Shown: in pieces, positions 3,426-39,108 of the stretch
Position numbering within the stretch: the stretch's first letter is position 1
Layout: each line of letters starts with the position of its first letter
Assembly (NCBI GenBank): GCA_030950285.1
Contig: JAUZRR010000004.1
Location: forward strand, 62,001 to 126,000
Source of the DNA: Planctomycetota bacterium
GTDB taxonomy: Bacteria; Planctomycetota; Phycisphaerae; Phycisphaerales; UBA1924
Reading direction: 5' to 3'
Length of the DNA: 64,000 nt
Notes under the pieces: generated by a model
Told to the model about the DNA's origin: nothing
Databases searched by the model: none
The model's input: the letters and a program-made list of their open reading frames with translations, nothing else
Translations under genes and position numbers: made by a program

Positions 3426-3462
3426 CCCCGGGGCGGGACACTCCGGGGCCACGACTCTTTCT
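3426..3462 (+). terminator. Possible terminator after pyk, overlapping a GC-rich repeat
   Basis: A stem CCCCGG/CCGGGG (3426-3431 and 3443-3448) with an 11-nt loop is followed by a pyrimidine-rich tract containing CTCTTTCTT. The right part, GGGGCGGGACACTCCGGGG, recurs with few changes at 37957, 38124 and 38387, so this may be a mobile palindromic repeat that has landed where a terminator is useful. Confidence 0.45.
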
Positions 3463-16929: not shown

Positions 16930-16933
16930 TGCC

Positions 16934-17024
16934 GTGGGACCGGCTTCCAGCCGGTGCGATGTCTGCACAGCGGAAAGTACACACCCGATGCGATGCACCA
17001 CCACCGGCTGGAAGCCGGTGCCAC
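16934..17024. repeat. Inverted pair of palindromic repeats (ACCGGCT-TCC-AGCCGGT family)
   Basis: Each unit is itself a hairpin: ACCGGCT, a 3-nt loop, AGCCGGT. The left unit (16934-16961) and the right unit (16996-17024) face each other, so together they can also form one long hairpin. This is the layout of bacterial interspersed mosaic elements. The left unit is nearly identical to a copy inside the methyltransferase coding sequence at 38411-38438. Confidence 0.85.
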
Positions 17025-17038
17025 GGTGTGGCGGGCAC

Positions 17039-35032: not shown

Positions 35033-38000
35033 ATGCCGATCGGGTTTGCTCAACCGATGTGGTTTCTGCTGGCGTTGGCGGTCGTGCCGATGGCGTGGCT
35101 CGCCGGGCGCTGGTTTCTGTCGATGAGCCGGATGCGCCGATGGAGCGCCGTGGGCGCGCGGGCGTTGCTGTTTGTTGCGATCGCCGCGCTTCTTGCCGGG
35201 GCGGTCTCGGTGCGTCGGACCGATCGGCTTGCGGTGGTCGCGGTGATCGACGTGTCCGAATCGGTGCGGCGGTTCGGGGACGAATCGGTCGCGGTGCGGC
35301 AGAGCAGAGCAGCCGGGGCGATCGACGCGGCCCGCGCGGCACTGGCGCGGGCAACCGCCGAGCGCGGCGCAGAAGACTTGCTCGGCGTGGTGGTCTTTGA
35401 CGGGCGTGCGCTGGCGATCGCCACCCCGACGCGGGCCGACCCGTTGGACCGCCCGCTCGATGTGTCGATGGCTGCCGGGACGGATATCGAGGCTGCGCTG
35501 CGGTACGCCTCGGCAATGATCCCGGCCGACGCGGCGGGGCGGATCGTGCTGTTCAGCGACGGGAACGAGACGATCGGCGACGCCGAGCACGCCGCGGCCG
35601 AACTGGTTGCCCGGCTCTCCGGGGCGAGCGGCGGTCGGTCGGGCGTGCCGATTGATGTCGTGCCGTTGTGGTACGACATCGAGCACGAGGTGATCGTCGA
35701 GACGGTCGACGTGCCCCCGACCGCCGAGGAGGAATCGGTGGTGGCGGTGCGTGTGGTGCTCCGGTCGGCGGGTGAGGCCGAGGGAACGCTGCGGCTGTCG
35801 CGCAACGGGGAAGAGATCGACATCAGCCCGGGGGCTGCGGGGCTCGGGCGGGCGTTGCGTCTTGTGGCGGGTCGGCGGGTGGAGGTCATCGAGGTGCCGC
35901 TCGAACGCGGGCGGGTGCATCGGTTTGACGCGGTGTGGGAGCCTCGGATACTCCCGGCCGCCGGGGGGGGCGCCGACGGCGAGACCGGCGGCACCACGAT
36001 GGCGGGCGATACCCGCGTAGAGAACAACCGCGCGGCAGGGTTGACCATCACGCCGGGGCAGGGTGAGGTGTTGATCGTCGACGGCGTCGGACGCGGTGCA
36101 CCGACCGGCGGCGGGGCGTTGCTTGCGCGGACGCTGCGACTGGCGGGAATCGGGGTCAGCGCGATCGACCCGGCGGCGATGCCCGAAGACCTTGTGTCGT
36201 TGCAGGCCTACGACCTGGTGATCCTGCAGGACGTCCCCGCCGACGCGATGAGCCAACGCGCTCAAGCGGCGCTGGCTGCGCATGTGCAGGAGCTCGGCGC
36301 GGGGTTGGTGATGCTTGGCGGGTACAACTCGTTCGCGGTCGGGGGGTGGCGCGGGTCGGCGATCGAGCCCTTGCTGCCGGTCGATCTGGAGATCCCCGAC
36401 GAACTGATCGTCCCCTCGGCCGCGGTGATGATCGTGCTCGATTCATCGGGCTCGATGGGGCACAACGTGATGGGGTCGGTGCGGACCCAGCAGGAGATCG
36501 CCAACGAATCGGCGGCACTCGCGGTGTCCACGCTCGACAAACGCGATCTGGTCGGGGTGGTGTCCTTCGACAGCAGGACCCGCGAGGTCGTACCGCTCGG
36601 GCCGAACACCGACCCCGACGCGACCGCCGCGCGCATCCGGAGTATCTCGGCCGGGGGCGGGACCGTGATCGGGCCGGCGCTCGGGCTCGCACGCGATCGG
36701 CTGATCGCGGTTGACGCCGAGATCAAGCACGTGATCCTGCTCTCCGACGGGCAGGCTGCGGACGCCGAGATGCTGCCGGCGATGGCCGAATCGCTCGGTC
36801 GGCTGGGGATCCGCATCACGACGATCAGCGTGGGCGCCGGGGCGGACCAGGAGACCATGAAAGCGGTCGCGGACATGAGCGGCGGCGAACACCACGCGGT
36901 GATGAACCCGAGCACGCTGCCGCGGATCTTTGTGCGCGCGATCCGCGTGGTGCGTACGCCGCTGGTGCGCGAGTCGCCGTTTGTGCCTCGGGTGTTGGGG
37001 ACCGGCTCGCCGTTGGTCGAGGGGTTTGAGGGGGCCGCGCGGGTGCCGGCACTTGGAGGGCTTTCGCTGACGCGGGCGCGGACCGACCCGACGATCACCA
37101 CCGCGATGGTGACCAATCAGGGCGAGCCCGTGCTGGCGCACTGGCAGGTGGGGCTCGGGCAGGTCGCGGTGTTTACTTCCGACGCGCGAAGCGACAACTG
37201 GGCGAGCATGTGGGCGGCGTGGCCGGGGTACGCCGAGTTCTGGATCGGTCTGGTGCGAAACCTCTTGCGGCCGACCGCGGCCGGGCCCTACGAACTGCAG
37301 ATGGTGCGCGAGGGCGACGGGCTGGTCCTTCGGCTCGATGCTGTCGAAGAGAACGGGGAACCGGTCAACTACCTTTCGGTGCCCGCGACGGTCTACGACG
37401 ACCGGGGAGCGGCGCGTGAGGTAACGCTGGCGCAGGTTGCGCCGGGGGTGTATGAGGCAAGGCTCGATCGGCCAGAACCCGGGCAGGTGGTCGCGGTGGT
37501 GCGACCCAGGCTCGGGCAGGAGGCACTGCCGCCGGTGGTCGGGGGGACGACGATCCCGGCCGGCGCAGAGTTTCGCCGGCTCCGCTCCGACGGGGCGTTG
37601 CTCGAACAGCTGGCCGACATCACCGGCGGGCGGATGCTTGACCTTTCGCAGCCGACGGCGTGGGGGGTGTTTGACCGGGCGGGTGTGCCGCCGCGGGTGA
37701 CGATGACGCCGGTGTTTGTGCCGTTGATGCTGTTGGCACTGGGGTTGTTTGTGCTTGATGTCGCGACGCGACGGGTGGCATGGGACCGGTTCGTGAGCCG
37801 TGAGTTCGGGGTGGACCTGCGCAAAGCCGCTGCCGAGGCAACCCGAGAACGCGGCGAGGAAGCCGGGCGGACGCTGGCGGGGCTCAAAGCGGGTCGGACA
37901 GACGCTGCGGACGCGACCTCGGGACGGGGGACGGGAGAGGGTGCGAGGCGGGGCGCGGGGCGGGGCACTCCGGGCTCCGAGCAAGGCAGCCTGGGTGAAC

Positions 38001-38260
38001 AGTCAGCCGCGAGAGTCATCGCCGAGGCCAGGCAGCGACGGGCACACGAAGAAGCCGAACGGTTGCGGAAACTGCGGGAGGAAATGCTGGGCGCTTCGGG
38101 CGCGAGAGGAACTACGACAAATCGGGGCGGGACACCTCGGATCCCGAGCGAGAAAGAGCACGATTCGCAGCCGAAAGATGGGGACAGCGGCACGGGTGGG
38201 CTGCTGGCTGCAAAGCGCAGGGCGCAGGAGCGATTCGAGCAAACAGAAGATGAGATATGA
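35033..38260 (+). CDS. Membrane protein with two VWA domains and a glutamine amidotransferase-like region
   Basis: The 1075-residue product starts with two membrane helices (MWFLLALAVVPMAWLAG, ARALLFVAIAALLAGAV) and has another near residue 900 (PVFVPLMLLALGLFVLDVAT). The first VWA domain begins AVIDVSESV with a complete DxSxS metal site (Asp73). A middle part (DLVILQDVPADAM, GAGLVMLGGYNSFAVGGW) resembles the Class I glutamine amidotransferase-like fold seen in such proteins. A second VWA domain follows with MIVLDSSGSMGHNVMG (Asp470), VGVVSFDSRTREV and HVILLSDGQAADA. Family members are thought to act with DUF58 and MoxR ATPases in envelope or stress functions; neither is in the window. The cytoplasmic tail after residue 930 is low complexity and holds GC-rich repeat copies. 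Its stop overlaps the next start (ATGA). Confidence 0.85.
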   Translation: MPIGFAQPMWFLLALAVVPMAWLAGRWFLSMSRMRRWSAVGARALLFVAIAALLAGAVSVRRTDRLAVVAVIDVSESVRRFGDESVAVRQSRAAGAIDAARAALARATAERGAEDLLGVVVFDGRALAIATPTRADPLDRPLDVSMAAGTDIEAALRYASAMIPADAAGRIVLFSDGNETIGDAEHAAAELVARLSGASGGRSGVPIDVVPLWYDIEHEVIVETVDVPPTAEEESVVAVRVVLRSAGEAEGTLRLSRNGEEIDISPGAAGLGRALRLVAGRRVEVIEVPLERGRVHRFDAVWEPRILPAAGGGADGETGGTTMAGDTRVENNRAAGLTITPGQGEVLIVDGVGRGAPTGGGALLARTLRLAGIGVSAIDPAAMPEDLVSLQAYDLVILQDVPADAMSQRAQAALAAHVQELGAGLVMLGGYNSFAVGGWRGSAIEPLLPVDLEIPDELIVPSAAVMIVLDSSGSMGHNVMGSVRTQQEIANESAALAVSTLDKRDLVGVVSFDSRTREVVPLGPNTDPDATAARIRSISAGGGTVIGPALGLARDRLIAVDAEIKHVILLSDGQAADAEMLPAMAESLGRLGIRITTISVGAGADQETMKAVADMSGGEHHAVMNPSTLPRIFVRAIRVVRTPLVRESPFVPRVLGTGSPLVEGFEGAARVPALGGLSLTRARTDPTITTAMVTNQGEPVLAHWQVGLGQVAVFTSDARSDNWASMWAAWPGYAEFWIGLVRNLLRPTAAGPYELQMVREGDGLVLRLDAVEENGEPVNYLSVPATVYDDRGAAREVTLAQVAPGVYEARLDRPEPGQVVAVVRPRLGQEALPPVVGGTTIPAGAEFRRLRSDGALLEQLADITGGRMLDLSQPTAWGVFDRAGVPPRVTMTPVFVPLMLLALGLFVLDVATRRVAWDRFVSREFGVDLRKAAAEATRERGEEAGRTLAGLKAGRTDAADATSGRGTGEGARRGAGRGTPGSEQGSLGEQSAARVIAEARQRRAHEEAERLRKLREEMLGASGARGTTTNRGGTPRIPSEKEHDSQPKDGDSGTGGLLAAKRRAQERFEQTEDEI
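37957..38145 (+). repeat. Two copies of a GC-rich repeat inside the VWA coding sequence
   Basis: GGGGCGGGGCACTCCGGGCT at 37957 and GGGGCGGGACACCTCGGATC at 38124 resemble GGGGCGGGACACTCCGGGGC at 3430 and the copy at 38387. They fall in the low-complexity cytoplasmic tail and are read in frame. Confidence 0.5.
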
Positions 38261-39108
38261 GTGAGCGCCTGCACAAAAGTAACCCGATCGGTCGGTTCAG
38301 CGACCGGGCGGCCGACTATGTGAAGTACCGCCCGAGCTATCCGCCCGAGGCGATCGACGCGGTGCTGGAGGGGCTCACGCCCTCGCGGGGCGGGACATTC
38401 CGGGGTCCGAGCCGTGGGGCCGGCTTCCAGCCGGTGCGAGAGTCTCGGGCGCTCCAAGCCGCCGATGTCGGTGCAGGGACCGGCATCTCCGCGAAACTGC
38501 TCGCAGAGCGGGGCGTGGAGGTGTTTGCGATCGAGCCCAACACAGAAATGCGGAACGCGGGGGAAAAGGTACCTTCCCCAAACAAGGAGGGCGGGCGTGT
38601 CACCTGGCGTGACGGCACCGCCGAAGCAACCGGGCTCGCCGATGCGAGTGTTGATCTTGTGCTGTGTGCGCAGAGCTACCACTGGTTCGAGCCCGTCGCG
38701 GCCTGCCTTGAGTTTGGGCGAGTGCTTCGACCGGGTGGCAGGCTTGCGCTGATGTGGAACGATGCCGACGAAAGCGACCCGGTGGCAAAGGGGTATTACG
38801 ACCTGGTGCGTGCTTCGAGCGAGGGTGTCGGCCCGACCAGCCACCAGACGGTGGCGAAGGAGCCGCGGGTCGAGCCACCGTTTGCGATGTCCGCGATGCG
38901 GCGGCTGCGCTTTCGCCACGAACAGCGGCTGGATGCCGAAGGGCTGGTGGGCCGGGCGATGAGCGCGAGCTATGTGCCGAGAACGGGGGAGAAAGCCGAG
39001 CGGCTGGTGGAGGGGCTGCGCCGGTTGCACGCCGAGTATGTGGGGGCGGATGGATGTGTGGGGTTAGTGTATGGGGTGTGGGTGTACTTGAATGAACCCG
39101 ATCAGTGA
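38257..39108 (+). CDS. Class I SAM-dependent methyltransferase with in-frame repeat insertion
   Basis: The 283-residue product opens with NPIGRFSDRAADYVKYRPSYPP, the usual start of a common methyltransferase family, and has the SAM-binding motif AADVGAGTGISAKLLAERGV at about residue 68, EVFAIEPNTEMR, GTAEATGLADASVDLVLCAQ, YHWFEP and VLRPGGRLALMWND. Between the N-terminal helix and the SAM motif, residues about 44-62 are encoded by two adjacent palindromic repeats (38387-38440) read in frame; homologues normally go straight from the helix to the SAM motif. The substrate is unknown. The start codon overlaps the stop of the VWA gene, so it is the third gene of that operon. Confidence 0.85.
   Translation: MSERLHKSNPIGRFSDRAADYVKYRPSYPPEAIDAVLEGLTPSRGGTFRGPSRGAGFQPVRESRALQAADVGAGTGISAKLLAERGVEVFAIEPNTEMRNAGEKVPSPNKEGGRVTWRDGTAEATGLADASVDLVLCAQSYHWFEPVAACLEFGRVLRPGGRLALMWNDADESDPVAKGYYDLVRASSEGVGPTSHQTVAKEPRVEPPFAMSAMRRLRFRHEQRLDAEGLVGRAMSASYVPRTGEKAERLVEGLRRLHAEYVGADGCVGLVYGVWVYLNEPDQ
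38387..38440 (+). repeat. Compound palindromic repeat inside the methyltransferase gene
   Basis: 38387-38408 is a copy of the GGGGCGGGACAxTCCGGGG repeat; 38411-38438 differs at one base from the left repeat unit at 16931-16958 and contains the GCCGGCTTCCAGCCGGT hairpin. Together they add 18 codons without disturbing the frame. Confidence 0.8.

Follow-up and report, generated by a model that had tools for sequence, protein, structure and literature searches.

In-frame REP elements in a methyltransferase loop and probable REPtrons within housekeeping genes of a planctomycetotal family

A methyltransferase gene with a two-repeat block

The window analyzed here is a stretch of 64,000 nucleotides (G+C content 66.5%) from a Planctomycetota MAG of 62 contigs, 3.10 Mb and 94.6% completeness, whose nearest named relatives are CP053450.1 (isolate PNC22; a single-contig MAG, G080 below) and Dive96_bin4.162. 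A class I SAM-dependent methyltransferase (MTase) gene of 283 aa is located at 38257-39108 on the forward strand (Methyltransf_11, PF08241, E=4e-19), with the Pfam domain spanning residues 70-164. Its start ATG overlaps the stop of a VWA-domain gene (ATGA, 38257-38260), and the two genes are probably translationally coupled. The MTase frame is open throughout, as an earlier note on this DNA had stated, and it contains a 54-nt block of adjoining repeats. The first repeat, unit 2 (REP family 2), occupies 38384-38412 (+), with the tract GGGGCGGGACATTCCGGGGTCC at 38387-38408, and is read in frame as ..RGGTFRGPS..; the second, unit 1 (REP family 1), occupies 38411-38439 (+) and is read as RGAGFQPVR. 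Based on copy counts for unit 2, and on genome counts and a copy differing at one base for unit 1, the block very probably represents two REP elements of two families that adjoin each other within an MTase loop.

The earlier note rightly described 38411-38438 as exactly one base apart from 16931-16958 (A to G at 38419) with a second repeat adjoining it; the adjacent tract turned out to be unit 2, which has a 34-copy family of its own. The family 1 copy at 16931-16959 (+) is opposed by another at 17001-17027 (−), as seen by sequence comparison. This inverted pair (16931-17027) lies directly upstream of a polA-like ORF and is possibly transcribed as a hairpin. In the MTase copy of unit 1, the foot GTGG is at 38414-38417 and the stem at 38419-38425 and 38429-38435, separated by the loop TCC. 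The stem contains a G-T wobble and the folding energy is unexceptional (z=-0.8), a lone short DNA hairpin being weak.

In aligned copies of unit 1, a single C or G separates the GTGG foot from the hairpin ACCGGCT-TCC-AGCCGGT, which has a 7-bp stem and the loop TCC (foot and hairpin form: GTGG-ACCGGCTTCCAGCCGGT). The core CCGGCTTCCAGCCGG has 63 exact copies in the 3.10-Mb assembly, nearly all of them with GTGG one base 5' of the stem. Allowing up to one mismatch raised the count to 78, compared with 5 when the pattern was reversed; for the 23-nt form and its reversed control, the corresponding counts are 76 and 0. Stem variants between genomes keep the pairing (ACCGG..CCGGT, ACGGG..CCCGT, ACAGG..CCTGT, ATCGG..CCGAT), and in two genomes (G137 and G142) part of the copies have the foot GTAG. 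Judged from sequence, unit 1 is assignable to the GTAG-type REPs by its foot (for which GTGG is allowed), its stem within the 6-9 bp range with a short loop, and its copy number.

For unit 2, the 22-mer GGGGCGGGRCAYTCYGGGSYCC is present in 34 copies against 1 for the control in this genome, and in 58 against 5 in a congener (G014). Within the window, the 11-mer GGGGCGGGACA was not enriched (6 occurrences vs 3.5 expected), and the tract as a 23-mer with at most three mismatches was found at 2 places only; a local duplication, considered as the origin of unit 2, was overturned by the copy counts of the degenerate consensus. One copy, GGGGCGGGACACTCCGGGGCCA, lies at 3430-3451 (+). In the VWA-domain gene that precedes the MTase, a degenerate copy at 37954-37982 (+) is read in frame as part of the C-terminal tail, and a further copy at 38121-38149 (+) is more degenerate and family 2-like (72% over 29 nt). 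The protein tail that holds both (37954-38149) is of low complexity. The foot of unit 2 is not clearly GTAG-like and its fold is weak. Unit 2 also forms a 40-nt inverted pair around a RAYT transposase embedded in the Ham1 gene of G014; by this sequence identity with G014, unit 2 qualifies as a repeated hairpin bracketing a RAYT.

The MTase loop in related genomes

Homologues were compared at 30 loci, including the MTase gene itself, by the spacing between the RPxYP and GxGTG motifs. The spacing is 52 residues in our MTase, whereas 32 is the common value among the homologues and is also that of the congener G014. The insert is thus in frame as previously described, but its size is about 20 residues rather than about 18. 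The loop is empty in most homologues, which agrees with the claim that a palindromic repeat is read here as protein where homologues have none, and the insert is absent from the cyanobacterial MTase homologues compared. That claim does not extend to all relatives. A complete unit 1 occupies the same loop position in G107, a decayed unit (GGTGGCACCGGCCGCCAGCCGGAGCG) is found in G080, and three genomes of genus g7 have unit-2-like DNA at this place, e.g., CGGGGCGGGGCATTGCAGGCCCCG. In G084 (L044), the loop contains a third repeat family, GGTAGATCCGCTCTCCGAGCGGATG, in two direct and inverted copies. Wherever a relative has similar residues, the repeat or a remnant of it is also there at the DNA level; such residues with no DNA repeat behind them were not seen. 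The loop thus appears, from these alignments, to have taken up repeats more than once, or to have retained and replaced them.

In the AlphaFold model of the MTase, the mean pLDDT is 76, and residues 44-60, which correspond to the insert, fall below 50. The roughly 20 residues gained by the MTase are probably disordered.

Unit 1 in many other genes

The distribution of unit 1 across the genome extends well beyond the MTase. Among the 63 exact copies, 26 are in frame in 18 Pfam-supported ORFs; this 41% is a lower bound, the remaining ~59% being without assignment to a Pfam-supported gene. Only Pfam-supported genes were counted since coding scores gave many doubtful ORFs at high G+C, and HyuA at L002 and L003 is a single ORF that was counted once. 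The repeat had previously been called intergenic, which does not hold for a palindromic repeat with at least 26 of 63 copies inside genes. More than one copy was found in HyuAB (2), a sulfotransferase (2), PyrC (2), Ham1 (4), a DeoC-type aldolase (2) and GcvT (2), and single copies in RlmN, NuoL, an FG-GAP protein, LpxB, RsmB, an asparaginase, an SDR, SerRS, an epimerase, Rpe, PurH and the MTase. By comparison with orthologues or PDB homologues, the insertions in GcvT, LpxB, SDR, PyrC and SerRS are clean; relative to orthologues of congeners and the sister genus, 33 residues are inserted in GcvT, 18 in LpxB and 39 in PyrC. The alignments to solved SerRS and GcvT structures break at the REP. 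In G014, a different repeat occupies the REP position of our SerRS, which argues that permissive loops are reused. Broken frames in the RlmN, PurH, Rpe and SDR orthologues of G080 were kept out of the evidence; they resemble indel errors.

Ordinary loop expansion would explain the MTase residues by slippage, or as having always been present, with the likeness at the DNA level due to chance or convergent codon use. Loop lengths do vary in the MTase family, and low-complexity padding (poly-Gly, TSP repeats) lies beside some inserts. This explanation is nevertheless highly improbable and already contradicted at the DNA level: the MTase unit 1 and a further member of its 63-copy element agree at 28 of 29 nt, foot included, unit 2 belongs to a 34-copy element, the inserted residues are absent from most orthologues, and unrelated genes hold the same units in three reading frames. 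As a separate observation, several REP-bearing genes (RlmN, L014; GcvT, L083; Rpe, L088; LpxB, L017) often also hold poly-Gly and TSP simple repeats, and their insertion loops look as if they were also growing by slippage.

Unit 1 contains no stop in any of the six frames. Nevertheless, the 26 copies are read as GTGFQPV (9), HRLEAG (14) or APASSRC (3), with no copy in the other three frames. With one vote per gene, the chance of any three frames being empty is of the order of 1e-4 or less (4e-5 when computed for 19 genes), the copies not all being independent. Such use of three of six open frames points to selection on the peptide, and unit 1 of G107 is identical to ours at 26 of 27 nt while the MTase genes that contain them are only about 75% identical. 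Both observations could be explained by co-option, i.e., a selected regulatory or structural function of the inserted peptides or of the RNA/DNA hairpins in the host gene. We regard this as quite unlikely, given that many unrelated proteins are hit, that orthologues have no copy or a decayed one, and that the MTase loop is modelled with very low confidence. The frame bias may reflect nothing but fold tolerance, and the high REP identity may mean recent or repeated insertion.

RAYT transposases embedded in Ham1, ValRS and Hsp70

Four matches to Y1_Tnp (PF01797) are present in our genome. One of them (C14) is a RAYT inside a 509-aa ORF that reads, in order, the N-part of Ham1, two REPs, the RAYT, three antisense REPs and the C-part of Ham1. 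The embedded RAYT retains its HUH motif (MPDHVH) and Tyr motif (YMLKNP), and the REP pair around it is unit 1. Each of the four genomes of the genus has Ham1 and an in-frame RAYT in one ORF, and Ham1 is uninterrupted in G006 of the sister genus. A family-wide search recovered 15 further genomes with a RAYT in frame inside Ham1. In many other genomes of the family, the RAYT is inside an ORF of ~800-1700 aa, valyl-tRNA synthetase (ValRS); the ValRS of our genome is without a RAYT. A third host gene, Hsp70/HscA-like, contains an in-frame RAYT with REP pairs on both sides in G098 (L228:1663-4377). Distinct embedded cases across the family amount to 18 in Ham1, 26 in ValRS and 1 in Hsp70, all from one RAYT clade.

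The architecture of these insertions is constant, although the bracketing REP sequences vary between genomes. The transposases match Y1_Tnp (PF01797), most with an MPDHVH-type HUH motif and most with Y-xNP. Inverted REP pairs of 23-45 nt, with at most two mismatches, enclose 44 of the 45 embedded RAYTs, compared with 7-17 nt in controls. Every Ham1-RAYT junction compared falls at one turn, after RFVCxMxLA. In G084, the ValRS-embedded RAYT is bracketed by a unit related to the GGTAGATCCGCTCTCCGAGCGGATG family. Four genomes carry both a Ham1- and a ValRS-embedded RAYT (G017, L205 and L218; G038, L197 and L234; G025, L198 and L235; G084, L204 and L236), and in each the two copies are separate in the RAYT tree.

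The possibility that the embedded RAYT is translated apart from its host, from an internal start giving a free transposase, with the host left as two working fragments or dead, would be compatible with the 17 of 44 cases in which an ATG precedes the RAYT core by at most 40 codons. The other 27 have no ATG within that distance, the host frame is retained through the insertions, downstream host parts have dN below dS, and ValRS is normally essential; separate translation is therefore unlikely.

Inteins with homing endonucleases are passengers with a DNA-cutting enzyme in the frame of conserved genes, with a patchy distribution and reuse of the same site. A DNA-cutting enzyme in frame in nucleotide and translation genes recalls them, and one may ask whether the insertions are spliced out of the protein. 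The junctions are instead REP-coded and of variable length, without a conserved N-terminal Cys/Ser or C-terminal His-Asn, and Pfam searches of the hosts returned host domains and Y1_Tnp only, with no splicing domain. An intein-like fate is highly improbable. Compared with inteins, the elements described here lack splicing motifs, have REP borders and carry, in place of a homing endonuclease, an HUH single-stranded DNA transposase.

Possible turnover and selection of the embedded RAYTs

The RAYT tree was built from 50 rows, i.e., 18 Ham1, 26 ValRS, 1 Hsp70 and five free-standing RAYTs. A single branch (100/100) parts all embedded RAYTs, together with one long-branched free RAYT, from the four other free RAYTs. 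Host labels cluster on the tree, with 6 changes vs 20 when shuffled. The Ham1 RAYTs of the genus form three lineages: ours and that of G107 group with g51, that of G014 groups with g7 (100/98), and that of G080 belongs to another Ham1 group. The N part of our Ham1 is 78-81% identical to those of the congeners, whereas RAYT identity goes down to 48%. The presence of three RAYT lineages in congeners despite such similar host parts suggests turnover of RAYTs at one Ham1 site. Where tree support is moderate, descent with unequal rates may account for the pattern.

Purifying selection was assessed from substitution rates. The dN/dS of the RAYTs is well under 1 (examples: 0.06/0.38, 0.075/0.83, 0.19/1.41), as is that of the host part downstream of the RAYT (0.14/0.37, 0.24/1.24), several dS values being near saturation. 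These sequence comparisons place both the motifs of the transposase and the host frame behind it under purifying selection.

Discussion

REPs, short hairpins with a GTGG-type foot, are presumed to travel as single-stranded DNA with the help of RAYT (HUH/Y1) transposases. Under the explanation that we hold, as a whole, to be highly likely, two REPs would have settled in a permissive loop of the MTase. Because the unit lengths sum to whole codons and unit 1 is stop-free, the enzyme would simply have gained ~20 residues. Insertions breaking the frame or the fold would be removed by selection, and in-frame copies sited in loops would survive. Unit 1 likely stems from our genome's own RAYT, which sits in frame with its REPs in the Ham1/RdgB gene, and unit 2 would correspond to the REP enclosing the RAYT within Ham1 of the congener G014. 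An embedded RAYT would act on its REPs and copies would insert widely, the MTase loop being one survivor that carries two REP generations. In this family, the whole REPtron (REP-RAYT-REP) is an open-frame passenger in housekeeping genes, and it most likely forms an internal domain of the translated host enzyme.

The mobilization of unit 1 by the RAYT is putative; our RAYT is bracketed by unit 1, and REP movement by RAYTs has been proposed in other systems. The frame and the selection on it imply that the fused enzymes may be made whole and working. We infer current mobility, translation as a single polypeptide, RAYT activity and a benign effect on the host. It is about evenly balanced whether, beyond this, a RAYT lineage has specialized as an in-frame domain of Ham1/RdgB, ValRS and occasionally Hsp70, with homing-like return, seeding of readable REPs and a frame protected by the host. 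In that scenario, the host gene would not survive loss of the frame, and the frame of the element would thereby be protected by the host.

In-frame intragenic REPs are known, including the GTGG-foot GTAG-20 of Opitutus terrae; in-frame GTAG copies are found in many DNA replication and repair genes and also in tRNA synthetases, the PVC superphylum included (Di Nocera et al. 2013, PMC3733652). Taken by itself, the MTase is one more instance of this already described phenomenon. Unit 1 resembles the GTAG-superfamily REPs in the foot (GTAG/GTGG), the 7-bp stem, the 3-nt loop, the high copy number and the RAYT association. The present case differs in that at least 41% of exact copies are in genes of all kinds, in the strong frame bias, and in the presence of two families in one loop. 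Rickettsia palindromic elements (RPE) are likewise palindromic repeats in frame in many protein genes (PMC3733652). RPE-4 and RPE-6 are CGTC repeats for which a dedicated transposase was not found, and RPE-1 is longer (PMC3733652). By these descriptions our units are set apart from RPE, which are not GTAG-type, and a likely cognate transposase is present here.

TnpA_REP cuts and joins single-stranded REPs in vitro, the foot serving recognition and the choice of cleavage site (PMC8266576). Certain tnpA_REP genes themselves contain REPs in frame, and a few unusually long fusion proteins were left out of consideration in that work (PMC6006769). The embedded elements share Y1_Tnp, the HUH and Tyr motifs and bracketing inverted REPs with such REPtrons (PMC6006769, PMC8266576). 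Known REPtrons have been described as stand-alone genes, whereas in the present family Ham1, ValRS or Hsp70 carries an entire REPtron in its reading frame. We found no published account of this arrangement in a search that covered the literature without most subscription journals; within that literature, the REPtron-in-housekeeping-gene system is new.

Peptides like RGTGFQPV, HRLEAGAT and VAPASSRC in these proteins should be annotated as REP-coded, and a transposase domain within ValRS or Ham1 should not be dismissed as an assembly error. More broadly, one bacterial family displays a likely source (the transposase), the units, the sites where they inserted and orthologous sites without an insert, which would make it a natural system for the passage of mobile DNA into protein. 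It also offers a testable idea, that a transposon may persist hidden in the reading frame of an essential gene, a strategy otherwise known from inteins.
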